This document shows positions 13,135 through 38,693 of a DNA stretch of 64,000 bases, in pieces (positions within the stretch are counted from its first letter, which is position 1; each line of letters opens with the position of its first letter). The translations under genes were made by a program, and so were the position numbers. The stretch comes from a virus. Under the pieces are notes generated by a model. That model had not been told where the DNA came from. It did no database searches and saw only the letters and a list, made by a program, of their open reading frames with translations. The stretch spans positions 1-64,000 of IMG/VR virus record IMGVR_UViG_3300022746_000019. The stretch is one strand, 5' to 3'.

Positions 13135-13523
13135 TTGTTGAACTGCCTTGCCTGTCCAAGGGCACGAGAAGCGTTCGAAGCAAGGTTAGGGTTGGACTTA
13201 CCCCACGACACCCACTGCTGGTGGGTAGCCCCAGAAGGGCTTCCACCGCCGGGACGCTGTTTCTGCCATTCGCGAACCGCGGCAGCTCGTTCTGGGCTGT
13301 TCCAAGCGGTCTGTTCCTTGGCGATCTCACCCGACCGCACAGCGTTCATAGTCGCACTAGCGCGAGTAGCTCGTCCGGGTGCAGCCTTGCCGTGTTCGCG
13401 AAACGACGGAGTACGTTCGCCAGCCCAGTGGTTTGAGTGCTGGGTCTCTACCCAACCTTCGACTTCCTCGCGTGACGGACGCTGCAGGGGTGGGTTCTTG
13501 GCTTTAGCCGACTTTTTTGCCAT
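13131..13523 (-). CDS. Basic hypothetical protein (130 aa)
   Basis: MAKKSAKAKNPPLQRPSREE... is basic, Trp-containing and Ala/Arg/Ser-rich, with EWQKQRPGGGSPSGATHQQW near residue 85. No domain recognised. Located at the head of the minus-strand late-like cluster. Confidence 0.65.
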   Translation of the reverse strand: MAKKSAKAKNPPLQRPSREEVEGWVETQHSNHWAGERTPSFREHGKAAPGRATRASATMNAVRSGEIAKEQTAWNSPERAAAVREWQKQRPGGGSPSGATHQQWVSWGKSNPNLASNASRALGQARQFNK

Positions 13524-13561
13524 GAGTCAATTATTCACGCAGCAGAGGAAATTGTCTGCGC

Positions 13562-13705
13562 TTACTTGGCTTTTGGCTTTGGCGAAGTCTTTTTAGCCGA
13601 GTTACTTTTCGCAACCGGAGGCTTGATCACAGGGCCGATGGACTTGTAGGTGAAAGACTGCTTACCGGGCTTGTAGGCACCGACGATGTCTTTATCATTT
13701 TTCAT
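13562..13705 (-). CDS. Basic hypothetical microprotein (47 aa)
   Basis: MKNDKDIVGAYKPGKQSFTY... starts at ATG 13705 with AGGAGACAG upstream, overlapping the stop of the upstream gene by 4 bp. Lys-rich C-terminus (SAKKTSPKPKAK). Function unknown. Confidence 0.65.
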   Translation of the reverse strand: MKNDKDIVGAYKPGKQSFTYKSIGPVIKPPVAKSNSAKKTSPKPKAK

Positions 13706-13923
13706 GCTGTCTCCTCAAGGTCTGGCAGGGTATTCATTTTGAAACGATCTTTTGATGCTAGAACCGGAATTCCGCAGTAGAAGCATGCCCGGTGTTCCAT
13801 GCTGGGGTAGCCGCACCACCCACACTTCACAAGACCGCTAGTCTTCGTGTCCATCTCCTCAGTAACAGGGAGCTCAATCAGCGATGTCGCAGTAGCGTCG
13901 TATTTTTTCTTAAACGGCCACAT
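13702..13923 (-). CDS. Zinc-ribbon protein (73 aa)
   Basis: Preferred start ATG 13923 (MWPFKKKYDAT), about 10 nt from AGGAGG; a longer frame to 13959 exists. CGWC and CFYC, 13 residues apart, form a zinc ribbon. It is the first gene of the minus-strand cluster, directly after the divergent control region. Confidence 0.65.
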   Translation of the reverse strand: MWPFKKKYDATATSLIELPVTEEMDTKTSGLVKCGWCGYPSMEHRACFYCGIPVLASKDRFKMNTLPDLEETA

Positions 13924-14211
13924 GGGCTGTGGTCCTCCTAGTGATTCGCGAATACCCAATTATAGCCTCGTTAGGCTACTGCCTGCACCTATTAACTAAC
14001 ACTGGCGCCTGTGCCCTGGACCCCATCTATTCGAACAAACGTTCTAAGGGTGGGGGGGTGTAGCCGTAACCGAATCGTTACCATGTCCGTTACCGAACCG
14101 TTACAAATCCAGGTGGCAGAGTGACAGCCCCGCATGGCATGGTTCTCCATGTGAAGGCAACCACGCCGACACCCCGCCCAATGGGGCGGTGACCTATCAA
14201 GGGGAGTAGCA
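13924..14211. promoter_or_regulatory. Divergent control region, first cassette element (0)
   Basis: Minus side: TATAAT at 13964-13959, about 36 nt upstream of ATG 13923, is a good -10 for the minus cluster. Plus side: two boxes, 14075-14091 (GTAAC...GTTAC, an inverted pair) and 14098-14117 (CGTTACCGAACCGTTACAAA), then CCAGGTGGC, a -10-like CATGGT (14138-14143), CTCCATGTG and 5'-UTR hairpins, including CCGCCC-AATG-GGGCGG (14175-14190), before the SD and ATG 14212. No coding sequence is seen here. Confidence 0.6.
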
Positions 14212-14496
14212 ATGGCTACACGCACTATCAAGCGCGGCGATGTCCGCGCATTCGTCGAGGCGACCCGCGGTCGTTTCGTTGGAGTGACATTCCGCAAGCG
14301 CACCACGGGAGAAGTCGTCTCCATGGGATTCACGACTAATCGTCAGTCCTACCTAGTCGGCGGCGACCCCGCCTACAACGCCGCCGAACGCGGCTTGGTC
14401 GTGGTCGTCAAGCCCCGCAAGGGATTCCGCTCATTCGGTATCGAGAATGTCATCGAATTCCGTTTCGGTGGCGACACTATCGTGGTGGAGGACTAG
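14212..14496 (+). CDS. Hypothetical protein, SH3-like beta-barrel candidate
   Basis: 94 residues, basic, mostly predicted beta strands: RGRFVGVTFRKRTTGEVVSM, GLVVVVKPRKGFRSFGI and NVIEFRFGGDTIVVED. The pattern resembles small phage proteins described as having an SH3-like barrel. First + strand gene of the cassette array, with GGGGAG upstream of ATG. Likely early and host-directed; that is inference from the array. Confidence 0.6.
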   Translation: MATRTIKRGDVRAFVEATRGRFVGVTFRKRTTGEVVSMGFTTNRQSYLVGGDPAYNAAERGLVVVVKPRKGFRSFGIENVIEFRFGGDTIVVED

Positions 14497-14498
14497 TC

Positions 14499-14705
14499 AT
14501 GTCACACGCGACCACGAACCCCGCTAACTACAATTGCTCAACCGACTTTGAGGCGTTCGACCATAGCGACGAGTGCGACTTCGAAGGTCCGGTGGACGGA
14601 GTCGAGGTGGGCAACCTCACTCCCGACGGATACCGTTCCGCAGGCTACACGCAACACTTTGTCTGCCCAAAGTGCAACGCTGAAGTTGAGCGCGAGCGCT
14701 ACTAA
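14499..14705 (+). CDS. Small zinc-binding protein
   Basis: 68 residues starting 2 nt after the previous stop. An acidic N-terminal half is followed by HFVCPKCNAEVERERY; ECDFEG upstream could supply a further Cys. Function unknown. Confidence 0.65.
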   Translation: MSHATTNPANYNCSTDFEAFDHSDECDFEGPVDGVEVGNLTPDGYRSAGYTQHFVCPKCNAEVERERY

Positions 14706-14712
14706 CAACCAC

Positions 14713-14736
14713 GGAGGGGGGCGCAAGCCCCCCTCC
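14713..14736 (+). terminator. GNRA-capped hairpin
   Basis: GGAGGGGGGC, GCAA, GCCCCCCTCC: a perfect 10-bp stem with a GNRA tetraloop and no T-run. It sits between two genes that probably share a transcript, so it may be an mRNA-stabilising or processing element more than a terminator. Confidence 0.6.
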
Positions 14737-14754
14737 CCTACCGAAGGGGCAAGC

Positions 14755-14970
14755 ATGATTCCCAAGACTGAACAAGCGGTCTATGTAGTACTCCGACTCT
14801 CAAGCCTGTTCTTTGGCGGTTGGTGTTTCTACTTTGTAGTCCAGAGCCTGAACACCACCGGACCTACGCATGAGCGGGCGGTGGCATGGGCGGTCGCGAT
14901 GCTGTTCATCACGACAACCTACGAACTAATCCGGTTTGTCGCCCTGGTTCTGAACGGCAGACTCCGATAG
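14755..14970 (+). CDS. Small membrane protein, two TM helices
   Basis: 71 residues from ATG 14755 with GAAGGGG upstream. Hydrophobic segments at about 9-29 (YVVLRLSSLFFGGWCFYFVV) and 43-66 (AWAVAMLFITTTYELIRFVAL), joined by a short polar loop. It probably sits in the host inner membrane. Third gene of cassette 0. Confidence 0.65.
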   Translation: MIPKTEQAVYVVLRLSSLFFGGWCFYFVVQSLNTTGPTHERAVAWAVAMLFITTTYELIRFVALVLNGRLR

Positions 14971-14971
14971 C

Positions 14972-15193
14972 GAGGGGGCGGGGCGCGAGCCCCGCCTCAC
15001 CGCGGGATTGTTTGTGTTGGCTCCCACCCTCCCAGAGCCTAACCTTAAAAGGGATAGTAGTAGAGAGAGTCGTTACCAAATCGTTACAGATCACCCGTTA
15101 TCGAATCGTTACAAAACCAGGTGGCGCGGCGGCACGGAGTACGGCATAGTACTCCATGTGAACGGGAAATACCCGACACGGAAGGGGAACATC
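14972..15193 (+). promoter_or_regulatory. Cassette control region A
   Basis: GC hairpin with GCGA loop (14977-14996), TTTGTGTTGG (15011-15020), hairpin GGCTC/GAGCC (15019-15023, 15035-15039) with 11-nt loop CCACCCTCCCA, GAGAGAG, two boxes (15071-15087 and 15096-15115), CCAGGTGGC, -10-like CATAGT (15145-15150), CTCCATGTG, a CGGG/CCCG hairpin and GAAGGGGA before ATG 15194. Confidence 0.6.
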
Positions 15194-15424
15194 ATGTCTC
15201 GACCATTGAGTGCAATCGCTCAAGAAATTGAATCGGTATGGGCTAAGCCGTATTTCGGCGCGGTACCGTATCTGCGCGCTATGCGTTCACTGTCGTCAAT
15301 CACCGATAGTTTCTTCGATGACACCGCCGAAGGCGTCGTTATCTACTTTCTCGCTAACGCCGCCACATGGCGCGGCGAGGACGCCCGCCGCATCAAGGCA
15401 GAATTGCGGGGGATGTTGAAGTGA
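15194..15424 (+). CDS. Hypothetical protein (76 aa)
   Basis: MSRPLSAIAQEIESVWAKPY... starts at ATG 15194 after the SD GAAGGGGA; longer in-frame extensions run through the control region and are rejected. Helical, with DDTAEGVVIYFLANAATW centrally and a basic end. I do not recognise it. Confidence 0.65.
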   Translation: MSRPLSAIAQEIESVWAKPYFGAVPYLRAMRSLSSITDSFFDDTAEGVVIYFLANAATWRGEDARRIKAELRGMLK

Positions 15425-15531
15425 CCGTTATCTTCTCCGCCCCCACATGCGCAGAGTGCAAGCGCGTGTTTGATCTGACCGATGAGACCGATTCGCACGA
15501 GTGGTATTTCGGACACGACTGCGAAGTGTGA
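15421..15531 (+). CDS. Zinc-finger microprotein (36 aa)
   Basis: GTG 15421 overlaps the previous stop (GTGA). The protein reads VTVIFSAPTCAECKRVFDL, then ends HEWYFGHDCEV. CAEC plus the C-terminal HDC suggests a zinc site. Translational coupling supports it. Confidence 0.6.
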   Translation: MTVIFSAPTCAECKRVFDLTDETDSHEWYFGHDCEV

Positions 15532-15536
15532 GACCC

Positions 15537-15569
15537 CCGGCGGCCTGAGACCCCCGCTCAGGCCGCCGG
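15537..15569 (+). terminator. 12-bp GC-rich hairpin
   Basis: CCGGCGGCCTGA (15537-15548) and TCAGGCCGCCGG (15558-15569) form a perfect stem just after the stop at 15531. No T-run follows directly, but GTTGTTTGTGTTG follows about 25 nt later. Confidence 0.7.
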
Positions 15570-15759
15570 CCCTGCGCCTGGCGGGATCCGGCGTTGTTTG
15601 TGTTGGACAGCCCTCCCACCCTGTCTCAACCCTAAAGGGATTAGGGAGGGAGAGAGCTGCCGTTATCAAATCGTTATAAATCCAGGTGGCTGCTAGCCGT
15701 GGACTATGGCAGGGTTCTCCATGTGAGCGAGAAACTCTCGCCACGGAAGGGGAACTATC
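15570..15759 (+). promoter_or_regulatory. Cassette control region B
   Basis: TTGTTTGTGTTGG, hairpin GACA/TGTC (15606-15609, 15622-15625) with a CCCTCCCACCC loop, AGGGATTAGGGAGGGAGAGAG (able to pair with the loop), box 15661-15680, CCAGGTGGC, -10-like CAGGGT (15710-15715), CTCCATGTGA and the 5'-UTR hairpin GCGAGA/TCTCGC, then GGAAGGGGA before ATG 15760. Confidence 0.6.
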
Positions 15760-16176
15760 ATGGCCGCTGTGAAACTCAACGTTTCGTCAGCCATTGCGCT
15801 AATTGAAGCGCGCTTGTTGGAGGCAGACTTGCATGAGTCTGAAGAAGCCCGAATTAACGCGGAATACGAGAACGCTATCCGCGAATGGGACTTGCGTTGC
15901 GCCAGTCTGATTCGGAATGGCATCTCTGCCGAACTCGTCTCTGCCAAGACAACTATGTCTGGAACAGTTGTTGTCACGTTTGAGCTGGACGGGTACGCTG
16001 TCCCGCCCATGCCAATCAAGGCGGGGAACCCATACCGAAGCCTTGGCAAGGAGTACCGTCGCGGGCAGTACGTGGACGGGCGTGAAGAACTTCAGTTCGC
16101 TCTCAAACTGCTCCGCGCATCAGTTGGGGATACGGTAACCCTCTCCGCCCTCAACGGAGTCAAGAACTATCTCTGA
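15760..16176 (+). CDS. Hypothetical protein (138 aa)
   Basis: An N-terminal helical region (residues 8-50, with IEARLLEADLHESEEARINA) is followed by a beta-rich C-terminal half containing GTVVVTFELDGYAVPPMP. No domain recognised. Single gene of its cassette, closed by a GAAA-loop hairpin. Confidence 0.65.
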   Translation: MAAVKLNVSSAIALIEARLLEADLHESEEARINAEYENAIREWDLRCASLIRNGISAELVSAKTTMSGTVVVTFELDGYAVPPMPIKAGNPYRSLGKEYRRGQYVDGREELQFALKLLRASVGDTVTLSALNGVKNYL

Positions 16177-16187
16177 GTAACTCCCTG

Positions 16188-16462
16188 GGGAGGCGCGAAA
16201 GCGCCTCCCTTCGGGGCGGACCGGCCGGCCGAAATGTTTGTGTTGAGTCCCGCCCTCCCAGACTCTAACCCTAAAGGGATAGGAGGAGAGAGATCCGTTA
16301 CCAACTTGTTATAAATACCCGTTGCGCCTGGCCAGGGCGATCTGGTATGCCGCCTGCCTGAGCTGTCGTTATCAAACTGTAATAAATACTAGGTGCGGAT
16401 GTCATCCCTATGCCCTAAGTTTCTCCATGTGAGCAACTCCGCTCACCAAGAAAGGGGACGCC
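16188..16462 (+). promoter_or_regulatory. Cassette control region C (two promoters)
   Basis: Hairpin GGGAGGCGC-GAAA-GCGCCTCCC (16188-16209); TTTGTGTTG; hairpin GAGTC/GACTC (16245-16249, 16261-16265) with loop CCGCCCTCCCA; GGAGGAGAGAG. First box 16296-16315, then 6 nt, then TTGCGC (16322-16327), 18 nt, TATGCC (16346-16351). Second box 16367-16386, -10-like TAAGTT (16416-16421), CTCCAT and hairpin GTGAGC/GCTCAC (16429-16446), SD and ATG 16463. Confidence 0.65.
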
Positions 16463-16789
16463 ATGAGCGTTTATGTGACAGGACCGCAGATGCTGGTTCA
16501 GTCCGAATTGGTCGCTTCGGGAGAAGCCGCCGTGGTATGCATGGAGGAACAGGCTCTTCGCGAGGTGGTTGACCTTCGCGATGAGTCCACATGGAGCCAA
16601 TACCGCGAGATTGTGTTTGTAATCCGCGATTCTGGCACCATTGAGGAATCGAAGGAAACGCTGCAAGAAGTCTTTGCGCGTTACCCTTACGCGCTGGACG
16701 CAATCGTCGTTCAGGGCAATTCGTGGCTCTCGGCAATTTGCGAGGACACCGATTGCTGCCCGCCCGAGGGTAAGCCCGTCCACAACTAA
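16463..16789 (+). CDS. DUF4192-like C-terminal fragment protein
   Basis: 108 residues. Residues about 83-104 read VVQGNSWLSAICEDTDCCPP followed by EGKPV, the hallmark ending of actinobacterial DUF4192 proteins (W..L C.D..CCPPEG.P). The N-terminal part (SELVASGEAAVVCMEEQ) is much shorter than in full DUF4192 proteins (about 300 residues). Either a reduced phage version or a domain captured from a host gene. The role of DUF4192 is unknown. Confidence 0.65.
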   Translation: MSVYVTGPQMLVQSELVASGEAAVVCMEEQALREVVDLRDESTWSQYREIVFVIRDSGTIEESKETLQEVFARYPYALDAIVVQGNSWLSAICEDTDCCPPEGKPVHN

Positions 16790-16798
16790 ACAGAGAAG

Positions 16799-16832
16799 CC
16801 GCCCGTCCCGCGAGGGGCGGGCGGTCTTTTTT
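16799..16832 (+). terminator. Rho-independent terminator
   Basis: CCGCCCGTCCC (16799-16809), GCGA loop and GGGGCGGGCGG (16814-16824, one G-T pair) are followed by TCTTTTTTA. The strongest terminator in the array. Confidence 0.85.
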
Positions 16833-17151
16833 ATGCGCCCAAGCCCCCGGTGGCCTAGGGATCCGGATCTGCCCAGCTGCCTGGGCGGGCCGGCCAGCCA
16901 GCAGAATTGTTTGTGTTGAGCACCCACCCTCCCAGTGCTCTTATATAGGGGTTGGGGGGAGAGAGATCGATCATCGTTATCGAATTGTTATAAAAGAGAC
17001 TTGAACCGGCCAGGGCCGTGTGGTATGTCGCGTGCCTGAGCTTTCGTTACCAAACCGTTATAAAAACCCCATGCAAAGTGGCGGGTGAGTGTGGAATAGT
17101 TCACCTCGTGAGCAACACCGCTCACCTCAAACTCCGAAGGGGAGTGACGCC
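16833..17151 (+). promoter_or_regulatory. Cassette control region D (two promoters)
   Basis: TTGTTTGTGTTG; hairpin GAGCAC/GTGCTC (16918-16923, 16935-16940) with loop CCACCCTCCCA; GGGGGGAGAGAGA. Box 16975-16994, 6 nt, TTGAAC (17001-17006), 17 nt, TATGTC (17024-17029): a good sigma-70-type promoter. Second box 17045-17064, -10-like AATAGT (17095-17100), hairpin GTGAGC/GCTCAC (17108-17125), SD GAAGGGGAG, ATG 17152. The stretch 16833-16907 holds only GC-rich repeats such as GCCCAG/CTGGGC; no gene is seen in the whole span. Confidence 0.7.
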
Positions 17152-17550
17152 ATGAGTATGTATGGCGACCCGAATCAGGCGGGTACACCTGACAACACCG
17201 AGTGCTATCGGTGCGGCTTGCTCGATAAAGAGGTCGCGTACCTCAAGGGCACGATTCAGAATCTGCGTGCCACGCTCGCAGAGATTGGCGAAGCCCTTTG
17301 GGACCAAGCCAAAGAAGACATTGACAACGGCGAACCCGTTGCCACCTTCTCATTCGACGACATCCGCGAATTGGCGCAGCAGTGCGGCGTTTCGACTAAT
17401 GTCTCGTTCGTACTCACTGCCTCATTCGAAGCCCGCCTCACGGCTCCGTATGGCACCACGGCAGAAGAGGTCCTCAACGGTCTGAGCATCGACTCTGACT
17501 TTGACCTCGACGACTACGGCTTCGAGAGCGAAGAACTCGAGCCTCGCTAG
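17152..17550 (+). CDS. Hypothetical protein, paralogue of 18562-18960
   Basis: 132 residues from ATG 17152 (MSMYGDPNQAGTPDN). Layout: CxxC-type ECYRCG, a coiled-coil segment (KEVAYLKGTIQNLRATLAEI), DIRELAQQCGVSTNVSF, beta region FEARLTAPYGTT and an acidic C-terminus. The 18562 protein has the same length and matches at each point (EVTFTVEDMRALVDLLGIST, ATFEAILDVPYGT), so they are duplicates. Function unknown. Confidence 0.7.
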   Translation: MSMYGDPNQAGTPDNTECYRCGLLDKEVAYLKGTIQNLRATLAEIGEALWDQAKEDIDNGEPVATFSFDDIRELAQQCGVSTNVSFVLTASFEARLTAPYGTTAEEVLNGLSIDSDFDLDDYGFESEELEPR

Positions 17551-17556
17551 CCGACC

Positions 17557-17704
17557 GGAGGGGGGCGAAAGCCCCCCTCCCCCACACTTCCCGCCCCGCC
17601 CTCTCTCCCCCGTAGGGCGGGGCGGGAAACACTCCAAGGGGATGCCGGAGTGACCTGGCCCACATAAGCCGCTTGGCGGGGTACTTCCCCTTCCCCCGCC
17701 AAGC
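17557..17704 (+). repeat. Stack of four perfect GC-rich hairpins
   Basis: GGAGGGGGGC-GAAA-GCCCCCCTCC (17557-17580); a 14-bp stem TTCCCGCCCCGCCC/GGGCGGGGCGGGAA (17588-17601, 17615-17628); CACTCC/GGAGTG (17630-17635, 17647-17652); GCTTGGCGGG/CCCGCCAAGC (17671-17680, 17695-17704). No gene is seen here. The first probably marks the end of the 17152 gene's message. Confidence 0.7.
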
Positions 17705-17892
17705 CCGCCTGGAGCTCCGGATCCGGCGGCCGGGAATGTTTGTGTTGACCCACCCTCCTCATTGGGAATGTGTGTGGGAGAGAGATCGTCGATCACCGTT
17801 ACGCAACTGTAATAAATCCAGGTGGCGTGGGGCGGAGAGATAGGGCAGGATTCATCCCGTGAGCAACCGCTCACACTTAGAAGGGAAGCACC
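17705..17892 (+). promoter_or_regulatory. Cassette control region E
   Basis: ATGTTTGTGTTGACCCACCCTCC begins near 17737, but the first hairpin stem is not conserved in this copy. GGGAGAGAGA is followed by box 17797-17816, CCAGGTGGC, -10-like CAGGAT (17846-17851), hairpin GTGAGC/GCTCAC with a 4-nt loop (17859-17874), SD AAGGGA and ATG 17893. Confidence 0.55.
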
Positions 17893-18099
17893 ATGAAAAT
17901 TTGGATTAACGTCCACAACGGGCAGACTACCTGCCCGGAACACGCAGGCAATGAGTTGTCATTCTCAATTGAGAGTGCGCCCACGGCACTGCAGCACGAG
18001 ACTTCGTTCGGTACATGGGTAGCAGCCACGCCCGAAGAGGTCCAAGACTTGGTACTCATCGCGGGCGACGCCTGCGAGACTTGCGCGTTCGGATTTTAG
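17893..18099 (+). CDS. Small Cys protein (68 aa)
   Basis: MKIWINVHNGQTTCPEHAGN... carries TCPEH near residue 14 and GDACETCAFGF at the end, so a CxxH/CxxC zinc site is likely. Second-half pattern TPEEVQDLVLIAGDACETC resembles small actinophage proteins. Function unknown. Confidence 0.65.
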   Translation: MKIWINVHNGQTTCPEHAGNELSFSIESAPTALQHETSFGTWVAATPEEVQDLVLIAGDACETCAFGF

Positions 18100-18101
18100 C
18101 C

Positions 18102-18341
18102 ATGAAGTTTGTAGTCCGCGCCGACCAGAAGATTGAGTACAAAGAATTCGTCGTGGAGGCCGAAATCCTCTCTGCCGCCCAAGAGATTGTGTCAAATTTA
18201 ATTGACATGGACTTTGAGGTCCAGTTCTCCACCTGGACAGTGGGCATCGACGAAGCGCCGGAAACTAAGCCGTGTGATCGGTGCGGAGAGCCGGTCGATC
18301 TGACCGAGACTTACTGCGACGCGCAATGCGCTGAGGGGTAG
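18102..18341 (+). CDS. Small zinc-ribbon protein (79 aa)
   Basis: Starts at ATG 18102, 2 nt after the previous stop. The beta-alpha-beta N-terminal part (MKFVVRADQKIEYKEFVVEA) is followed by PCDRCGEPVDLTETYCDAQC, a CxxC/CxxxC zinc ribbon. A start inside the upstream gene is possible but less likely. Function unknown. Confidence 0.65.
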   Translation: MKFVVRADQKIEYKEFVVEAEILSAAQEIVSNLIDMDFEVQFSTWTVGIDEAPETKPCDRCGEPVDLTETYCDAQCAEG

Positions 18342-18561
18342 TGATACAGCCAGCCTGGTCCCCGAGAGGGGGCCGGGCCGGTTTGTGTTGGAGTCCCACC
18401 CACCCTGACTCTTACCTTTCAGGGATTGGTGGGAGAGAGATACGGCAGATCGCCCGTTATCGAACTGTAATAAATCCAGGTCGCAATTGTCGGTGGCATG
18501 CGGCATAGTTCACCTTGTGAGCAACAAGGCTCACACAAGACTCCGAAGGGGAGTGGTCGCC
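18342..18561 (+). promoter_or_regulatory. Cassette control region F
   Basis: TTTGTGTTGG; hairpin GAGTC/GACTC (18391-18395, 18407-18411) with loop CCACCCACCCT; AGGGATTGGTGGGAGAGAGA, whose GGTGGG matches the altered loop; box 18455-18474; CCAGGTCGC; -10-like CATAGT (18504-18509). In the 5'-UTR, CCTTGT/ACAAGG (18513-18518, 18524-18529) and GTGAGC/GCTCAC (18517-18522, 18529-18534) overlap and exclude one another. SD GAAGGGGAG, ATG 18562. Confidence 0.65.
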
Positions 18562-18960
18562 ATGATTTATGGCGAGAACCCGATTCAGGCGGGGAATCCT
18601 GAAGCCGCAGTATGCGCGGACTGCATGCAGAAAGACAGGCGGATTGCCTCGCTGGAGTCAACCGTCCAGCGCAAGGTAAACGACATGACTGCTGTCGGGA
18701 AGCGACTCTGGGCTGACACCCAGTCTTGCATCGACGAGGGTTACACCGAAGTGACCTTCACTGTCGAAGACATGCGGGCACTAGTGGATCTGCTGGGTAT
18801 CAGCACGGACATCCGCGTGCGCGTCACTGCCACCTTTGAGGCTATCCTAGATGTGCCCTACGGCACTGACCCGGACTACCTGATCGAGTCGTTCAGTGTC
18901 GACTGTGAGCATGACATGCTCCATTTCGGGTTCTCCGACGAAACTGTCGAACCCGAATAA
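18562..18960 (+). CDS. Hypothetical protein, paralogue of 17152-17550
   Basis: 132 residues, the same length as its paralogue. VCADCMQKDRRIASLESTVQ provides CxxC and the coiled coil, then EVTFTVEDMRALVDLLGIST, a beta region and an acidic C-terminus. Both copies keep the CxxC pair and the segment before PYGT, which suggests retained function. Confidence 0.7.
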   Translation: MIYGENPIQAGNPEAAVCADCMQKDRRIASLESTVQRKVNDMTAVGKRLWADTQSCIDEGYTEVTFTVEDMRALVDLLGISTDIRVRVTATFEAILDVPYGTDPDYLIESFSVDCEHDMLHFGFSDETVEPE

Positions 18961-19029
18961 CTTCCCCCGGAAGTTCCGCACCTGGGCATGTGTTTAAACT
19001 GCCCACCACTACTAAGAAGGGATAAGACA

Positions 19030-19089
19030 ATGATTACTGATCTATACAACAGCTGGACTAACCGCGAGACATGGGCGGTTAATCTCTAG
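19030..19089 (+). pseudogene. Remnant of NGWTNxETW-type small phage protein
   Basis: ATG 19030 after AAGGGATAAGACA reads MITDLYNSWTNRETWAVNL and stops at TAG 19089. Phages commonly encode a small protein with N-G-W-T-N-x-E-T-W-x-V-x-L followed by 50 or more further residues (DUF7249-like, from memory). Only the start survives here; the SD is intact. A functional 19-residue peptide cannot be excluded. Confidence 0.5.
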
Positions 19090-19449
19090 AACCTCCCGCC
19101 CAGTCTCTTCCCCTTCAGGCTGGGCGGGATCGGCCCGCCGACCTCAGCCACACTCCCCCGGTGGCTGGGGGACGGCACCCGGCTGGGCTGCTGTGGCAGC
19201 TCGGCCGGGCGGCCGCTTTGTTTGTGTCGGACGCCCACCCTCCCTCCGTCCTCTTATTAGGAATTATGGGAGAGAGAGCCGTTACCTAATTGTTATGAAA
19301 GATCCTTGACCTTCCAGGCAGATCATGCTAGGGCCGGGGATTCTGACGCCGTTACCAAACTGTAATAAAAGTAGGTGGAGAGTGTCAGTGCCATGCCGTA
19401 AGTTTCTCCATGTACCGAAGCCCAGTAGGTACAAAGAAGGGAGTTCGCC
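19090..19449 (+). promoter_or_regulatory. Cassette control region G (two promoters)
   Basis: GC hairpins CCCGGC/GCCGGG with GCTGC/GCAGC, then TTTGTTTGTGTCG; hairpin GGACG/CGTCC with loop containing CCACCCTCCC; GGGAGAGAGAG. Box 19280-19299, 6 nt, TTGACC (19306-19311), 17 nt, TAGGGC. Second box 19350-19369, -10-like TAAGTT (19399-19404), hairpin GTACC/GGTAC (19412-19416, 19428-19432), SD GAAGGGAG, ATG 19450. No gene is seen in 19090-19449. Confidence 0.65.
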
Positions 19450-19680
19450 ATGAGCGAGCAAGACTTTCTCGAATTCAGGTTCGAGGATAGCGAGTATGTA
19501 CGAACCGCTCGAGTTAGCCGCGATGTAATCCAAGGCCTGCTTATCAGCCGAATGAGCATGGACAGAATCATCAAGGCTACTGAATTGGTAGCCCGCACGG
19601 TTACCCCTGAGAATCAAGAAGAAGCGAACGCTGGCGGCTCGTGGGCGTTCATCACTGCGACACGGAAGGTGAGTGCCTGA
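19450..19680 (+). CDS. Hypothetical protein (76 aa)
   Basis: MSEQDFLEFRFEDSEYVRTA... has an acidic N-terminus and a helical middle (VIQGLLISRMSMDRIIKATE). First gene of its cassette, 1 nt before the next start. No domain recognised. Confidence 0.65.
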   Translation: MSEQDFLEFRFEDSEYVRTARVSRDVIQGLLISRMSMDRIIKATELVARTVTPENQEEANAGGSWAFITATRKVSA

Positions 19681-19681
19681 C

Positions 19682-20041
19682 ATGGGTAACCGTTCTGAGA
19701 TTATTGTCCAGAGCGATTCATTCGCTAGCAACCTCGTGTTCTACGGTCACTGGTCCGGGACGGACAACCTGCTCGCAGTAGCGAGAGTCCTCCAGCGTAC
19801 CGACCGCGTGGGCGACCCCTCGTACCTCGCGGCTCAGGTTTACTTCGAGTTCGCTGTGAACCTCGGACAGACTGACGGCAACCTGTCGTTCGGTATCCGC
19901 GCCTCCGATGGCACTGAGTGGGTGATGTGCGATGAACCGCCGGTCTACCTCAACGCCGACACGGGAGAGGTGGTCTACCAAGACATGACTCTGTCGAAGG
20001 ACACTCTCAAGGGTCTATTGTTAGACTCGCTCACCAAGTAA
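19682..20041 (+). CDS. Hypothetical protein (119 aa)
   Basis: Preferred start ATG 19682; GTG 19673 is an alternative. Beta-rich: SNLVFYGHWSGTDNLLAVAR, AAQVYFEFAVNLGQTDG, LNADTGEVVYQDMTLSK. I recall similar small proteins in actinophages but no function. Ends just before a 12-bp hairpin. Confidence 0.65.
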   Translation: MGNRSEIIVQSDSFASNLVFYGHWSGTDNLLAVARVLQRTDRVGDPSYLAAQVYFEFAVNLGQTDGNLSFGIRASDGTEWVMCDEPPVYLNADTGEVVYQDMTLSKDTLKGLLLDSLTK

Positions 20042-20048
20042 TCAACAC

Positions 20049-20075
20049 GGGGAGGCTGGAAAGTCCAGCCTCCCC
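20049..20075 (+). terminator. 12-bp hairpin between cassette genes
   Basis: GGGGAGGCTGGA (20049-20060), loop AAG, TCCAGCCTCCCC (20064-20075). No T-run. Like 14713-14736 it separates two genes without a new promoter, so an mRNA-stabilising or processing role is as likely as termination. Confidence 0.6.
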
Positions 20076-20095
20076 TACCTAAGAAGGGAAACGCA

Positions 20096-20575
20096 ATGCA
20101 TACTGCACACTTAATGCTAGTCCGAGCTGAGTCCCCAGAGGGAGCTCAGAACTATGTCGAATCGCGGCTCACTCACGACACCACTGTCGAACAGTGGTGG
20201 GACTGGTTCGCCATAGGCTCCGACGGTCGGTATTCACTCTCAAGCGCCATTGAGGGCTGGACCGGGGACGACTATGTCGTAGGGCTTGAAGCTACCCCTG
20301 GGCTGTTCCACCTAGCTGTGGACACTTTCTACGAATACCGCCGGCAAGCATTCGACCGGCACTCAGCTGAGCTGGAGAACAATGGCTGGATGTTCAGGCT
20401 CGACCAGGATGACATGATTACCTGGCGGCTCCGCCGGTTTGCCGACCTCTCCGCGTCTTACTATTGCGCGGAGAGCCATGTCTATGACCTGCATAATTTC
20501 TCAGCTAACTTGGATCTGTTCATTAAGGACACGGGTACTGACTGGTTCGCTGTCCTGGTGGATTTCCACTACTGA
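20096..20575 (+). CDS. Hypothetical protein (159 aa)
   Basis: MHTAHLMLVRAESPEGAQNY... is acidic and aromatic-rich, with VEQWWDWFAIGSDGRYS and NNGWMFRLDQDDMITWRL. It reads as a full soluble globular protein of a family seen in large actinophages; no function known to me. SD AAGAAGGGA. Confidence 0.65.
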   Translation: MHTAHLMLVRAESPEGAQNYVESRLTHDTTVEQWWDWFAIGSDGRYSLSSAIEGWTGDDYVVGLEATPGLFHLAVDTFYEYRRQAFDRHSAELENNGWMFRLDQDDMITWRLRRFADLSASYYCAESHVYDLHNFSANLDLFIKDTGTDWFAVLVDFHY

Positions 20576-20580
20576 CCAAC

Positions 20581-20654
20581 CGGCAGGCGGGAGTTGCGCC
20601 CCGCCTGCCGCCTCCCCGCCCGCGATCGTGCCCGCCAGCGCGATCGCGGGCACT
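20581..20654 (+). terminator. Tandem terminators
   Basis: CGGCAGGCGGG/CCCGCCTGCCG (20581-20591, 20600-20610) and GCCCGCGATCG/CGATCGCGGGC (20618-20628, 20641-20651), both perfect 11-bp stems. The second is followed by ACTTTGTTTGTGTT, so the conserved T-rich element acts here as a terminator tail. Confidence 0.8.
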
Positions 20655-20840
20655 TTGTTTGTGTTGGCCCTCCCACCCCGCTTAGGGAGTTGTTGTGAGA
20701 GAGATTTGATCTGTCCAGGGGTATTTGTTACATTTGGGTAACGGAATGATCGTTATCGAATCGTTATGGTTAATTCGTTGACACTGTCAGTGCGTGCTGT
20801 AATGTCTGCCATGCATTCAGTACCTAGAGAGAGAGATACC
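20655..20840 (+). promoter_or_regulatory. Cassette control region H
   Basis: TTTGTTTGTGTTGG, CCCTCCCACCCC, AGGGAG, GAGAGAGAT, box 20751-20770, 7 nt, TTGACA (20778-20783), 16 nt, TAATGT (20800-20805): the best consensus promoter in the array. It drives the Gp88-family gene. GAGAGAGAGA is the SD region before ATG 20841. Confidence 0.7.
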
Positions 20841-21533
20841 ATGAAGGCACTCAAGCGATCGACTGATTCTAAAGTGGCTAATAGCCTTACCCCCGGAGGG
20901 AAGGGCAGAATCGCCAATTCATTCGGGCTACCCTCGGGCAGGGCGTACTCATGCCCTGCAGCTACTAGTGTCTGCGAGTCAGTGTGCTACGCGGGCAAGC
21001 TGGAGAAAATTCGCCCGACCGTCCGTAATCTACTCATGCACAATTGGGATCTCCTCCGGGAGGCGGATCGACATACTATGTATGACCTACTAGTGAGCAT
21101 GCTTACGGAATTCGACGCCGAATGCGACAAATGGGACGCAGAGAAGCTGTTCCGCATTCATTGGGACGGAGACTTCTTCTCCCCGGAATATGTAGCCGCC
21201 TGGGCAGCTGCGATGGCGGAATTCCCGCAGATTCGATTCTGGGTATATACACGGGTAGACTACGCTGCTAGGATCCTCCGCCATACCCCTAATCTCTCCC
21301 TGTACTTCAGTGGAGATTCAGAGAATGCCGAAACGGCAGAGAGAATGTCCGCCTTGGGCGTCAATATCGCCATGCTAGGGAAGACTTTCGATCTGGCACG
21401 CGAGGCACTGTCTGTACGGGCGGCAAAGTGCCCCGAACAGCGCGGGCAGATTGCCCTTGCCGGTGCCTGCGTCGCATGCAAAATCTGCATCAAGGGAAAC
21501 ACAAGCATTACATTCTCGATTAGTAAGAAGTAG
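20841..21533 (+). CDS. Gp88-family protein
   Basis: 230 residues from ATG 20841 (MKALKRSTDSK). Key features: NSFGLPSGRAYSCPAATSVC followed by ESVCYAGK at about residues 26-55, WDGDFFSPEYVAAWA, FWVYTRVDYAA, LYFSGD and a C-terminal CVACKICIKG. This is the actinophage gene product 88 family, whose Cys spacing suggests metal or Fe-S binding; its reaction is unknown. An upstream extension to 20766 covers the promoter and is rejected. Confidence 0.75.
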   Translation: MKALKRSTDSKVANSLTPGGKGRIANSFGLPSGRAYSCPAATSVCESVCYAGKLEKIRPTVRNLLMHNWDLLREADRHTMYDLLVSMLTEFDAECDKWDAEKLFRIHWDGDFFSPEYVAAWAAAMAEFPQIRFWVYTRVDYAARILRHTPNLSLYFSGDSENAETAERMSALGVNIAMLGKTFDLAREALSVRAAKCPEQRGQIALAGACVACKICIKGNTSITFSISKK

Positions 21534-21541
21534 GAGTAACC

Positions 21542-21757
21542 ATGAGAAGGCCCAAAGTCGCCGAAGTCAACAATTGGACTATCGTAGAGGATATGTCTAA
21601 TGAGATCGCCACTGTCTGGGAGGCGGACAATATCCCAGACTTCTTCAAACTCACCTCACCGGCTCATGCCACCAAGCTCTTCTACGGAGAAACAGCGTGG
21701 CAGGACGCCCAAAGGCTTTCCAGTGATCTATTCTTCAAGGTCAGGGTAGCCTCATGA
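21542..21757 (+). CDS. Hypothetical protein (71 aa)
   Basis: MRRPKVAEVNNWTIVEDMSN... starts 8 nt after the Gp88-family stop, with AGGAG upstream, so it is cotranscribed with it. Mixed alpha/beta; no domain recognised. Confidence 0.65.
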   Translation: MRRPKVAEVNNWTIVEDMSNEIATVWEADNIPDFFKLTSPAHATKLFYGETAWQDAQRLSSDLFFKVRVAS

Positions 21758-21760
21758 TCT

Positions 21761-21792
21761 GAGCTCGGGGCTTTCCCCTTCTCCCCGAGCTC
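21761..21792 (+). terminator. 10-bp hairpin
   Basis: GAGCTCGGGG (21761-21770) and CCCCGAGCTC (21783-21792) form a perfect stem just after the stop at 21757; pyrimidine-rich loop, no T-run. Confidence 0.65.
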
Positions 21793-22033
21793 CGCTAGGC
21801 GGTTCAGCAGTACCTCTCTCACTGCTGGACCGCTTTGGCGTGTCTGCGCCCGGGCAGCCTCGCATGTTTGTGTTGGCCCACCCTCCCCGAATAGGGAGTA
21901 TGTATGTAGAGAGAGAGCAATCGTTACCAAACTGTGACCGGCCGGGGCTTGACACAGCTCCCCGGCCTGTGCTAGGCGGCAAAATGATCTAATTTGTCGA
22001 CAAAGCGCTTTGTGCATACAGCTATTTGTGCAT
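21793..22033 (+). promoter_or_regulatory. Cassette control region I
   Basis: ATGTTTGTGTTGG near 21865, CCCACCCTCCCC and AGGGAG, GAGAGAGAG, box 21922-21941 (second half degenerate), 7 nt, TTGACA (21949-21954), 18 nt, TAGGCG (21973-21978). Downstream, TTTGTCGACAAA (palindrome near 21993-22004) could be an operator. No open frame of note follows until 22332, so a long leader or small RNA may be made. Confidence 0.55.
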
Positions 22034-22193
22034 AAAGAGAGAGAGAAGAGAAGAGAAGAGAGAGCCGGCTCGGCTACTGCCCCAGCAGATCGAGGCTTAA
22101 ACGCGGGCAACACCAGGCCATACGCCTATCCTCCCCGTTCCTATCAACTAGCCCCCTATGTCCTCTATCCCTATCTCTCTCTATCTATCTCTT
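22034..22193 (+). repeat. Purine tract and facing pyrimidine tract
   Basis: 31 consecutive purines (22034-22064, AAAGAGAGAGAGAAGAG...) and a CT-rich stretch (22161-22193, interrupted by A) flank about 95 nt. They could form an imperfect long hairpin in RNA or unusual DNA structure. No gene is seen in 22034-22257. Confidence 0.5.
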
Positions 22194-22257
22194 AGGTACT
22201 AAGAAGGGAAATTCATAAAGGCGCCGATTTTTACGCGGGGGCGACCCTGTATGTATT

Positions 22258-22331
22258 CGTTATCAAACTGTTACCGAATAGGCGGGAGAATAATTTGCAT
22301 AATGTCAGTACGGGCGATAATAATTTGCCCC
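22258..22331 (+). promoter_or_regulatory. Box J and possible promoter
   Basis: Box CGTTATCAAACTGTTACCGA (22258-22277), then GGCGGGAG and TAATGT (22300-22305), the same -10 hexamer as in region H but without a clear -35. AATAATTTGC occurs twice (near 22289 and 22318) before ATG 22332. Confidence 0.45.
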
Positions 22332-22970
22332 ATGAACATCACACCCATTCGAAATGCCATGATCACTTGCTCATGCTGCGGCGTCCGTCTTGAAACACTG
22401 GTCTGCCCAGACATCACCCTTTGCCACGAATGCATCATGGAGTGCATCGGTGACAACCTTACCCCTGCCGATGACCATAATCGTCAAGCGGCGGCTGAAC
22501 TCACCAAGGGACTAGTCCGGGTCGCTGAATGCGACTCCTTTGCCTGCGGTGGTATGGAGCAGCCTTTCTACTTCGATAATGTCGGCAGTGCTGTCTGTGC
22601 AGTCTGTGATGAATATGTGCGGATTAACACCTGCGACTGGGAAGAATGCTTCTCCAAGTGGGGTCAGGACGACGGCGACGGCAATATCTACACATGGGAA
22701 CTCATGGACTACTTCGCGTCTCAGGGCTGGCAGGCGTTTGATGGACAATGGGGTCTCCATAATACTGTCATTACATCACTGATTAACGCAGGCGACGAGA
22801 CTGTCTACTTAATCTGGTCAGGCGACGATTCTGTAAACGCCGAAGAATCGCCGCGGGACTTCCTGCCCGCCAGCATGGTCCGGGAGCTTGACAGCAAGTT
22901 CAAGCCCGACACCTATGTACCATTCCCCGTTTCATTCATGCCCACAATTCTGTTCACAGAAACCAACTAG
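22332..22970 (+). CDS. Hypothetical Cys-rich protein (212 aa)
   Basis: Start uncertain: ATG 22332 (MNITPIRNAMITCSCCGV) is preferred; the frame is open to 22251. Cys-rich N-terminus CSCCGV...CPDITLCHECIMEC suggests two zinc sites; a further CDSFACGG and CAVCDEY lie near 80-105. The C-terminal half is acidic and aromatic (WGQDDGDGNIYTWELMDYFA). No family recognised. Confidence 0.6.
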   Translation: MNITPIRNAMITCSCCGVRLETLVCPDITLCHECIMECIGDNLTPADDHNRQAAAELTKGLVRVAECDSFACGGMEQPFYFDNVGSAVCAVCDEYVRINTCDWEECFSKWGQDDGDGNIYTWELMDYFASQGWQAFDGQWGLHNTVITSLINAGDETVYLIWSGDDSVNAEESPRDFLPASMVRELDSKFKPDTYVPFPVSFMPTILFTETN

Positions 22971-24852: not shown

Positions 24853-26886
24853 TCATCCTGTTATCAGTTTCACTTCGCAGGCATCCGTGGTGCAATATGC
24901 CTCTCCGATAGCATCCGCTGCCATTCCGGCGTAAACCCCAGACAGATCGATTGGGAAGAGCTTCATCTCCCCCTCGTCTACATATTCTTGTTCAGTAATA
25001 CGCGTGTAAGGCATTTGAGGATAGACATGATTACCAGACGGCAAGAAACTCACAGTCTTGAGCTGCCCGTCGTACATATGGAGCACAGTTCCAATGTGAT
25101 CCTTCTCTGTCTCTGGGTCAAAGGTGATAGTCACAGAGACGGAGTTGTCCGACCAGTACCGCTGTGCGGTGGACGCGAGAGCCATCTTCTCAAAGACAGT
25201 TACATCGCGCTCAGCTCGCTTGGCTTCGGACTTAATTGGGAAGAACACGACACTAGTTCCCTTTGGGTCTTCGCTGGCCGGCTCCACGCGATACTGAGCC
25301 ATCTTGAACAATGGCAGCATCGGGTCATTGTTGGAGAATCGAATAGCACGCAGGAAGTACTTTCCGCCCGGAGTCCAGTGGACGCCCGGACTCTCACCAG
25401 CGAGGATCGAGACAGTTCCCGACGGCTTGATAGTGGTGGTCTTAATAGACTCGCGCACACCCAGCCATTCGGAATACTTCTTGTCGTAGTGCTGAACAGT
25501 CGCGTAACCCTCGTCCATCCAAAGGCGGAGTTCGGGCATACCACGGTTGTCAGCGAAGTTAGCGACGCCAGACATCGAGGTTCCGATGCGGCGGTTGCGC
25601 TGCATGATGGCATTGGTCTCTTCCCAGTGGGTCGGGAGAAGCGTCACAGTCTTGGCGTAGAGGTAGGCGAACTTCAATGTGCGGTTGTAATCCTCAAGGG
25701 AGTCATGGCGGTTGAGGTAAGTCTCAACCAAGGTGCACATCTCGTACGACTCAAGGCTCTGCTCAGCGCATGGGTTGTAGCCAGCTGCTCGCCAGTCCTT
25801 GTTGTTAGGCTGATCGATAAGGCGTCCGTACTTGCGAGTGACATCCATCCAGATAACGCCCGGTTCTCCGTTGAGTGCGATGCCATCCACAATTCCCGAG
25901 AGGTCGTCACCTACAGAGACGGACACAGAGTTGTTGGACATCCAGCCCCAGCCTGGAGCGGCGGGGTCGTAGGAGTTGCGTTCTGGGTAAACCTCTGGGT
26001 TCTTGAGGTTCAGGAAGTCTGGATCATCGATGGAGCCAATGAGAAGTTCTGCGGAGCGGCGGACATTGCCCGATACGACGCAGACGCCAATGAGGTTGCC
26101 AATGTCAGCAATGTCCTTGCGGGTGACCTGCTCACCGGCGCGTCCCTTGAACAAGTTAGCAATGTGATTGTGCAAACGCATAAGTGGCTCGGGGCCAGCT
26201 GCGGTGCCGCCGAAAGTGCGGATGGGTTCTCCCGCCAAACGAATCTGGGAGTAGTCAAACTCCACGCATGGCTGATCCGACTTCAAGTAGGAGTTGATTA
26301 CCTCAACCACGGACTCTACCCAGCCTTCGCGAGTGTCCGGAATGACCGCGGTCTTGCACTCGTCCTTGGGCTGGTAGATGGTGAATCCCTTGTCCGCACC
26401 CTTCTGGTCGAACCCGACACCGACGCCCAGCATGGACGCTTCCATGAGGAACGCGAACGGAGCGGCGGGGTTGTTCTTCGTCATGCTCTCGGTGCTGACG
26501 AACGCACAGTTCTGCAGGGCGGCACTGTTCTTCTGCTCATTGACGAGCGGGGTACCCATGACCCACAGCCCACGACCGGGCGGAGTCCACTTGAGGTTGA
26601 ACAGTCGATCGAAGGCTTCTTTGGCCGACGCAGCGGCGCGGCTGTCATTCCAGGGAAGTCGGTTGGACTTGCAGTGATCCTTCTGCAGGCTGTACATACC
26701 GTTGATGACGCGCTCGCAAACATCTACCCAAGTCTCCTTGGTGCCGTCCTCTTTCAAACGACTGTAGGTGCGGAGAAATGTAATCTCACCAACGGAATTA
26801 CCGGCGGCATCTCGATACCCCCAAGGAACGGGTTTGCCTCTGTAACCAGCGACAAAGTCTTCAGCAAGACGGAACGAAAGTGCCAT
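24853..26886 (-). CDS. Class II ribonucleotide reductase (B12-dependent, monomeric type)
   Basis: 677 residues. Reduces ribonucleotides to deoxyribonucleotides for phage DNA synthesis, using adenosylcobalamin. Visible: PPGRGLWVMGTPLV, AALQNCAFVSTE (redox Cys), CVVSGNVRRSAELLIGS, YNPCAEQSLESYEMCTLVE (the N-x-C-x-E catalytic triad), IKPSGTVSILAGESPGVHW (substrate loop) and the C-terminal redox pair CTTDAC. Length and arrangement fit the Lactobacillus leichmannii-type monomeric enzyme. No separate small subunit is expected or present. The long + strand frame across it is a shadow. Confidence 0.95.
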   Translation of the reverse strand: MALSFRLAEDFVAGYRGKPVPWGYRDAAGNSVGEITFLRTYSRLKEDGTKETWVDVCERVINGMYSLQKDHCKSNRLPWNDSRAAASAKEAFDRLFNLKWTPPGRGLWVMGTPLVNEQKNSAALQNCAFVSTESMTKNNPAAPFAFLMEASMLGVGVGFDQKGADKGFTIYQPKDECKTAVIPDTREGWVESVVEVINSYLKSDQPCVEFDYSQIRLAGEPIRTFGGTAAGPEPLMRLHNHIANLFKGRAGEQVTRKDIADIGNLIGVCVVSGNVRRSAELLIGSIDDPDFLNLKNPEVYPERNSYDPAAPGWGWMSNNSVSVSVGDDLSGIVDGIALNGEPGVIWMDVTRKYGRLIDQPNNKDWRAAGYNPCAEQSLESYEMCTLVETYLNRHDSLEDYNRTLKFAYLYAKTVTLLPTHWEETNAIMQRNRRIGTSMSGVANFADNRGMPELRLWMDEGYATVQHYDKKYSEWLGVRESIKTTTIKPSGTVSILAGESPGVHWTPGGKYFLRAIRFSNNDPMLPLFKMAQYRVEPASEDPKGTSVVFFPIKSEAKRAERDVTVFEKMALASTAQRYWSDNSVSVTITFDPETEKDHIGTVLHMYDGQLKTVSFLPSGNHVYPQMPYTRITEQEYVDEGEMKLFPIDLSGVYAGMAADAIGEAYCTTDACEVKLITG

Positions 26887-38196: not shown

Positions 38197-38693
38197 GGGG
38201 TTGCCCAGTTTCCGCGTGAGCGTGCTGCTCCGCCCGAAGTTCGTCGGGTAAGTTCGCGGCTAATAAGGTTGGTATCACGCTCCGCGTTATTAGCCATGAC
38301 CTCAACAAGTTTCCTGTACGCGTACTTGCCTTCATGTGCATGGGTTTGGCGCATGACTTCGGGTTCCATGGCAACCTGCACTTTCAGCAAGGTAACTGTG
38401 TCTTTGCTCCCCTTAGCTCCGTTGGCCTTAAGCAGGGCCACATTCTCTTCCCAGTTCAATTCGCGCTCAGCGGCGCGCTCGTCAATGATTGCCACAGCGA
38501 GCTGCGCGGAAAGAAAGTTCCAGTACGAGGTAAAGTGAACAAAAAGTTCCATAAGCTGTTCGTCAGAAAGATCGCTCAAGTCTGACGGAAGCGCCGGTGT
38601 GTCGATATCAGATGATGTGGGAAAATGAAGCCCCTGTGCTTCTAGGGATTTAATCGTGTCCCAGTTATCTGAGTTAATCTTCAAGCTTGGCAT
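38193..38693 (-). CDS. Hypothetical protein between resolvase and exonuclease
   Basis: 166 residues from ATG 38693. Acidic linker (PALPSDLSDLSDEQLMELFV), then a helical region (WNFLSAQLAVAIIDERAAER) and a basic end. Overlaps both neighbours, so it is expressed with the recombination enzymes. A recombination accessory role is inference. Confidence 0.65.
   Translation of the reverse strand: MPSLKINSDNWDTIKSLEAQGLHFPTSSDIDTPALPSDLSDLSDEQLMELFVHFTSYWNFLSAQLAVAIIDERAAERELNWEENVALLKANGAKGSKDTVTLLKVQVAMEPEVMRQTHAHEGKYAYRKLVEVMANNAERDTNLISRELTRRTSGGAARSRGNWATP

Follow-up and report, generated by a model that had tools for sequence, protein, structure and literature searches.

A candidate DNA border element with individually rewritten stems between tandem accessory genes of uncultured actinophage-like viruses

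Small genes read from the + strand follow one another between 14.2 and 23 kb of the window, by which we mean the 64 kb stretch analysed here (positions 1 to 64,000 of the 90,007-base IMG/VR virus record IMGVR_UViG_3300022746_000019), and nine of the gaps between or before these genes carry a short repeated element that opens with a near-fixed sequence, GTTTGTGTTG. From sequence comparisons, we read this element, at a probability of about 45%, as a DNA border module between tandem, independently promoted accessory genes that would insulate neighboring units and would give them short shared ends for exchange. More than 200 unique copies of the element family were found in a single virus group. 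A preliminary description made from the window alone had claimed a repeated + strand hairpin with stems that differ between copies yet stay paired. Both parts of this claim hold: TTTGTGTTG is present at eight + strand sites (15011-21875), against a chance expectation of 0.77 for the whole window, with the variant TTTGTGTCG at 19221, and a paired stem (stem 1) is found in six of the nine copies (at 15019, 15605, 16245, 16918, 18390 and 19229), being absent from those that start at 17738, 20657 and 21866.

Results

The element occurs in open and closed forms

Pattern scans of viral contigs matched 58, 68, 20 and 51 stretches, and we gathered 135 unique open-pattern copies from IMG/VR contigs, about a dozen of which proved to be closed-ended, together with 92 unique closed candidates, a few of which (e.g. 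L141, L144, L154, L173 and L179) resemble chance matches. The near-fixed start can be written (A/T)(A/T)(A/T)TGTTTGTGTTG(A/G), which is longer than our search pattern; directly 5´ of TTTGTGTTG stands WWWTG, with G at -1 in 132 of 132 copies and T at -2 in 86%, and the next base on the 3´ side is always a purine. In the open forms, this start is followed by a 4-7 bp stem (5-6 bp in the window) around CCCNCCCNCCC (type I), by a C-rich tract and then GGGA with a tail that lacks C and consists of 3-4 nt microrepeats (type II), or by a fixed TATCCCTTCGGGATA hairpin (type III), and GAGAGAG terminates nearly all of them. The closed forms terminate instead in CAACACAAAC, which is complementary to the fixed start, and include a cloverleaf that retains the C-rich tract (type V) and a long stem of 18-26 bp with no C-rich loop (type VI). 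Contig L067 carries types II, VI and V together in one array, and the forms are therefore interchangeable in place. With the closed form added, the element family is wider than first reported. The near-constant 11-nt loop of the preliminary description is better given as CCCNCCCNCCC: the loop is indeed C-rich, but the exact 11-mer CCACCCTCCCA occurs only twice, and the sequence said to follow the hairpin, GGGAGAGAGA, is exact in only four of the nine window copies.

Type II copies, to which the three window copies without stem 1 belong, obey an additional rule. The base after CCCC (X) is the same as the base after GGGA (X´) in 49 of 49 copies (25 A, 22 G and 2 T), with a mutual information of 1.2 bits against at most 0.31 for every other column. 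The X=X´ correspondence is a direct-repeat rule and not base pairing. Hitch-hiking of general identity was rejected as its source given the low values of the other columns, and a base that might mediate between the two positions is present in some loops (e.g. in L097) and missing from the shortest ones. We also rejected a leader peptide read from (A/T)TG TTT GTG TTG: AAG often stands directly ahead of TTTGTG, and no reading frame is conserved across the C-rich tract. A second conserved stretch, T-run-AGGG..GCC..CCC..GCC, lies between the terminator and the element in many copies (L006, L022, L031, L045 and L048).

Covariation is found for the stem and not for a second helix

Covariation of the stem, as had been proposed, is observed among the relatives far above the level of swapped or shuffled arms, and the two arms pair in every subtype that has a stem. 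For open forms whose choice did not depend on pairing, a fraction of 0.874 of the 5´ arm was paired, compared to 0.603 ± 0.021 with swapped 3´ arms, and none of 2000 shuffles reached this value. Covariation scores in alignments were 0.608 versus 0.249 and 0.516 versus 0.240, with no shuffle out of 500 as high in either case, and sliding the partner arm abolished the signal, the exception being a +3 slide of only two pairs, which scored 0.398 in the 0.516 alignment. For 27 closed stems the score was 0.464 versus 0.086; in 83 cells both partners had changed, and in none had one partner alone changed (wobble); since these stems were chosen by pairing at their first four inner positions, only columns 15-18 are the unbiased part of this comparison.

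The loop and the purine block downstream of it had been proposed to form a second helix, covarying with one another. This did not stand: the longest helix was 4.19, against 4.14 with swapped blocks (p=0.27), and the comparison failed equally within loci (p=0.50) and in the window copies only (p=0.42). A pseudoknot RNA, in which stem 1 would be joined by a helix between the C-rich loop and the purine block, is therefore scarcely credible. Perfect 6-7 bp matches that would suit it are present in two window copies, at 15597 and 18382, but runs of C and of G suffice to produce the 7-bp match at 15611/15644, no subset shows covariation beyond that of swapped pairs, and the type VI closed forms are devoid of the C-rich loop. 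Of the earlier pair of suggestions, a pseudoknot RNA or a structured DNA, the first is unsupported and the second is favored.

Closed stems are nearly free of wobble pairs

Beyond the fixed ten bases, 564 of the 566 pairs in the closed stems are Watson-Crick, the other two being a G.T (about 0.2% G.U) and an A.C, whereas 71 intrinsic terminators adjoining the same elements, measured with a stem finder that is similar but not identical, contain 578 Watson-Crick, 67 G.U and two A.C pairs (10.4% G.U). In the type I stems, G.U is confined to the outermost pair, which holds an invariant G. Among the 42 closed copies with a detected terminator, 22 begin 4-5 nt past its hairpin, directly behind the T-run, and ordinary transcripts should therefore end before the element. 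Because the closed stems are nearly wobble-free next to terminators with 10% G.U, and because terminators precede the element, we read the symmetric unit as DNA. The closed stems do not show the tolerance for G.U on the transcribed strand that marks an RNA hairpin, nor is the element itself an intrinsic terminator, given that the terminators lie in front and no T-run comes after. A terminator hairpin is enriched upstream of the open elements as well; its spacing is too variable for a canonical terminator abutting them, and this candidate was dropped.

The main rival explanation is that the hairpin works as RNA in read-through transcripts, as a back-up terminator, an RNase III-type processing site or a stabilising hairpin that splits polycistronic RNA. 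We consider this possible but doubtful. It would account for an orientation that matches both flanking genes and for a position behind terminators, where read-through would matter, and the long-stem closed type would fold strongly as RNA (-35 to -59 kcal/mol). The contrast in G.U content between closed stems and adjoining terminators argues against it, as do the missing T-run 3´ of the element, window stems that at 5-6 bp are too short for RNase III, and the terminators in front, owing to which most transcripts should exclude the element. An Rfam search of 13500-22500 gave a best match of E=0.036, far below the gathering score and not over the elements; we likewise found no described family that matches, as the preliminary description had stated.

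The element lies between genes of its own direction

Neighboring genes were called with a codon model. Of the 135 open-pattern (C-rich) copies, 112 have on either side a gene that runs the same way as the element, while no copy lies between convergent genes and a single divergent call is doubtful; all 64 type VI copies for which both neighbors are known and no gene call overlaps are tandem too. When gaps of 100-450 nt were taken as the starting point, 146 of the 384 tandem ones contained the motif, compared to 1 of 20 between convergent genes and 2 of 29 between divergent genes. A small open subtype (seven copies) is antisense to both neighbors. From the tandem-only context, the element marks the junction where one unit ends and the next, in the same direction, begins, and both forms are located between the terminator of the upstream gene and the operator or promoter of the next.

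A long fixed motif, always followed by a purine and always upstream of a co-directional gene, might also be expected of a promoter, in which case GTTTGTGTTG would direct an RNA polymerase or sigma factor specific to the phage and the resulting RNA would begin with the hairpin. This is improbable, since operator and promoter-like sequences are found further downstream and the inverted copy in the closed forms would drive transcription backwards. A single-subunit RNA polymerase was detected in none of 11 records, though the control genomes gave no match either, and sigma-70 region 4 was detected in only one of the 11; neither of the two was found in the virus of the window. In the relative G005, sigma-70 region 4 genes adjoin elements (G005:C1:35950-36099 and 38357-38455). 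A conserved gene whose product reads as MoxR-type AAA ATPase-like has a cloverleaf element 300-650 nt 5´ of it (L013 6570-7949, L068 1111-1995 and L070 472-1908), and in L068 this gene is followed by one with an apparent HEVAH motif.

Copies are missing or rewritten between conserved flanks

Contig L151 matches contig L146 at 99.9% identity across 9.75 kb but is without 114 bp that correspond to one cloverleaf element plus eight bases. At this empty site, the neighboring CRP-like operator is intact and there is no duplication. Stronger hairpins elsewhere in L151 were retained, which disfavors an assembly artefact as the cause of the missing element. In four orthologous pairs (L048/L049, L060/L081, L065/L067 and L036/L043), the flanks are alike and the interior of the element has been rewritten. 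In about a dozen of the 116 pairs that share the downstream gene only, the similar stretch opens a short way 5´ of the motif, at -11 to -39; for pairs that share the upstream gene only, similarity ends inside the element or at its end in 8 of 21.

A precise empty site, many copies of 60-120 bp, fixed inverted ends (GTTTGTGTTG/CAACACAAAC) and a preference for terminator T-runs would also fit a miniature mobile element bounded by 10-bp terminal inverted repeats and inserting 3´ of these T-runs. We regard such an element as unlikely: the empty site, a single case, is without a target-site duplication, the interiors are not common to the copies of one genome, unlike those of recently transposed families, and the right-hand repeat is missing from the open forms. 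In 18 records, no Y1 HUH transposase (IS200/IS605- or REP-type) above the family cut-off and no tyrosine recombinase was found. It is even harder to see the element as an integron-like (attC-like) cassette recombination site folded as single-stranded DNA, although the two have in common short conserved ends, a palindromic interior kept in structure and not in sequence, and single-gene cassettes in one direction (PMC2727003), as well as a length of 60-120 bp. The phage integrase family PF00589 is in 0 of the 18 records, compared to 14 of 14 control genomes, and the ends, GTTGGGC ... GCCCAAC, which only part of the copies have, are in the reverse of the attC order (RYYYAAC ... GTTRRRY), with the right end missing from the open forms. 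The lack of a recombinase or of a Y1 transposase over the cut-off thus lowers both the integron-type and the transposon-type readings.

The nine copies in the window

The copies and the operator-like sites that accompany them are as follows.

15010..15069, + strand: copy 1, open with stem; GTTTGTGTTG at 15010-15019, arms GGCTC (15019-15023) and GAGCC (15035-15039), loop CCACCCTCCCA (15024-15034), GAGAGAG at 15063-15069
15072..15112, + strand: two operator-like sites GTTAYNNAANYGTNAY, directly 3´ of copy 1
15596..15656, + strand: copy 2, open with stem; arms GGACAG (15605-15610) and CTGTC(T) (15621-15626), C-rich loop, GAGAGAG at 15650-15656
16236..16292, + strand: copy 3, open with stem; arms GAGTC (16245-16249) and GACTC (16261-16265), loop at 16250-16260
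16909..16966, + strand: copy 4, open with stem; arms GAGCAC (16918-16923) and GTGCTC (16935-16940), loop at 16924-16934, GGGAGAGAGA at 16957-16966
17738..17785, + strand: copy 5, open without stem 1; GGGAAT after a C-rich tract; X=X´=A
18381..18440, + strand: copy 6, open with stem; arms GGAGTC (18390-18395) and GACTC(T) (18407-18412), loop at 18396-18406
19220..19277, + strand: copy 7, variant GTTTGTGTCG, with stem; arms GGACG (19229-19233) and CGTCC (19247-19251)
20657..20704, + strand: copy 8, open without stem 1; CCCTCCCACCCC..GGGAGT; X=X´=G
21866..21917, + strand: copy 9, open without stem 1; CCCACCCTCCCC..GGGAGT; X=X´=G
15662, 16368, 16976, 17046, 17798, 18456, 19281, 19351, 20752 and 21923: operator-like sites after most other copies
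14089..14104, + strand: operator-like site of the first + strand gene (14212)

The operator-like sequence GTTAYNNAANYGTNAY has 15 sites in the window (14089-22274), against 0.05 expected. Gene 14212, which has no co-directional gene upstream, has the operator-like site and no element. In a Pfam scan of ten cassette and flanking proteins, nine were without a match and the remaining one, at 20841-21530, was GP88 (PF17338). The place of GTTAYNNAANYGTNAY upstream of promoters is taken elsewhere in the virus group by DnaA boxes (TTATCCACA) or by CRP-like TGTGA..TCACA sites, and a DnaA box (CCTGTGGATAAC) often follows closed elements within about 20 nt (L059, L067, L038, L146 and others); the boxes suggest that host DnaA may regulate promoters of these phages. 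Simple repeats rich in GA and in CT are present 3´ of the last element, at 22020-22075 and 22150-22200.

Distribution of the element

Proteins encoded by the record include terminase, DNA polymerase, helicase and baseplate proteins. By terminase (TerL), the closest cultured relatives of the window virus are Streptomyces phage BRock and its kin, at about 51-53% identity (about 53% for BRock itself), and the virus is actinophage-like. The carriers of the element are uncultured viruses, mostly from lakes, related to Streptomyces phages, and in every element-bearing record where a terminase was detected TerL is 78-83% identical to that of the window. As these records all belong to one group, the element family is, as far as seen, confined to one metagenome-only virus group. 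In 85,000 bacterial and archaeal genomes, 257 billion bases in all, the open pattern gave 39 matches, none convincing among those inspected, and the downstream GGG...GAGAG part was absent from every inspected match. In cultured phages the element was not found, with one query giving weak partial Prevotella phage matches only and the other query none, and phage BRock gave no element signal above the control level.

The TerL genes of eight relatives (G004, G007, G014, G025, G029, G053, G068 and G071) contain an in-frame TAG, TAA or TGA and are otherwise intact. On the minus strand of the window, 24853-26886 encodes a B12-dependent (class II) ribonucleotide reductase that is about 81% identical in relatives.

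Discussion

The arrangement we propose runs from the terminator of the preceding gene through the near-fixed sequence and the self-complementary segment to the operator and promoter of the next gene. The symmetric unit would be DNA itself, present as a single-strand hairpin or an extruded cruciform and recognised or tolerated as such. Fold-back or template-switch copying, for instance, may rewrite its two arms jointly; as intermediates with a wobble or a mismatch were not seen, we infer that both arms change in one step. As a further barrier between a leaky terminator and the promoter that follows, the element would keep transcription units apart, it could serve as a short shared segment for cassette exchange, and the varied stems would limit deletion or recombination between the copies of one genome.

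Several observations weigh against a border module of this kind. The motif is absent from 62% of tandem gaps of 100-450 nt, and L151 shows that the element is dispensable at one junction, such that insulation is not essential everywhere. Most cassette breakpoints fall in genes or further upstream, outside the element, and cassette exchange at the element is therefore only suggested by those that coincide with it. The open forms share only the fixed 5´ motif, the C-rich tract, GGGA and GAGAGAG, and the stems of types I and II are short or absent, so that not every copy could plausibly form a cruciform. No enzyme or binding protein was identified for the element, and the strict pairing could come from strong selection on some other structure.

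Among known systems, 6C RNA and other C-rich-loop small RNAs of Actinobacteria carry C-rich loops on small stems. In contrast to these, the element has no Rfam match in 13500-22500, no promoter or terminator of its own, and closed stems without wobble. The promoter-early stem-loops, or mobile regulatory cassettes, of T4-type phages, reportedly described by Arbiol and colleagues in 2010 (cited in PMC4177764) and proposed to mediate cassette shuffling, are likewise small modules of a stem-loop and a promoter at gene borders, and the position of the module and some of the breakpoints agree with those of the element. However, the stem-loop of the T4-type cassettes is the terminator, whereas the stem of the element is not, being an extra hairpin after the terminator with Watson-Crick, individually rewritten arms and fixed terminal repeats. 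The extended start-associated sequences (ESAS) of Cluster K mycobacteriophages, 17-bp repeats associated with a 13-bp GGGATAGGAGCCC at the translation start, resemble the element in occurring in one orientation in large intergenic gaps of the non-structural half of actinophage genomes and in having inverted repeats with a variable spacer, but ESAS are conserved in sequence and lie beside the ribosome site of the gene that follows (PMC3203893). The stem of the element differs in almost every copy, with only the ends fixed, and lies behind a terminator, far from the start codon. Neither ESAS nor the T4 cassettes are known to combine fixed ends with individually rewritten, wobble-free stems. We hold out some possibility, though not a strong one, that the element represents an undescribed DNA-structural class of gene border, composed of a fixed 10-nt end and a palindrome that is repeatedly rewritten whole by templated copying.

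Phage accessory genes turn over fast, and by what means single-gene cassettes are delimited and exchanged in the absence of a recombinase is little understood. The family described here is a large natural series in which structure is kept and sequence changed in each copy, and it offers an internal RNA control, in the neighboring terminators, together with a natural empty site. Should the symmetric unit indeed be DNA, the family would be a case in which to test how genomes write and maintain palindromes and how terminators and promoters are insulated in dense phage arrays. If the borders are indeed rewritten from a template, one genome could hold many borders that are functionally equal and non-homologous, by which tandem promoters would be insulated and cassettes exchanged without deletion between copies.

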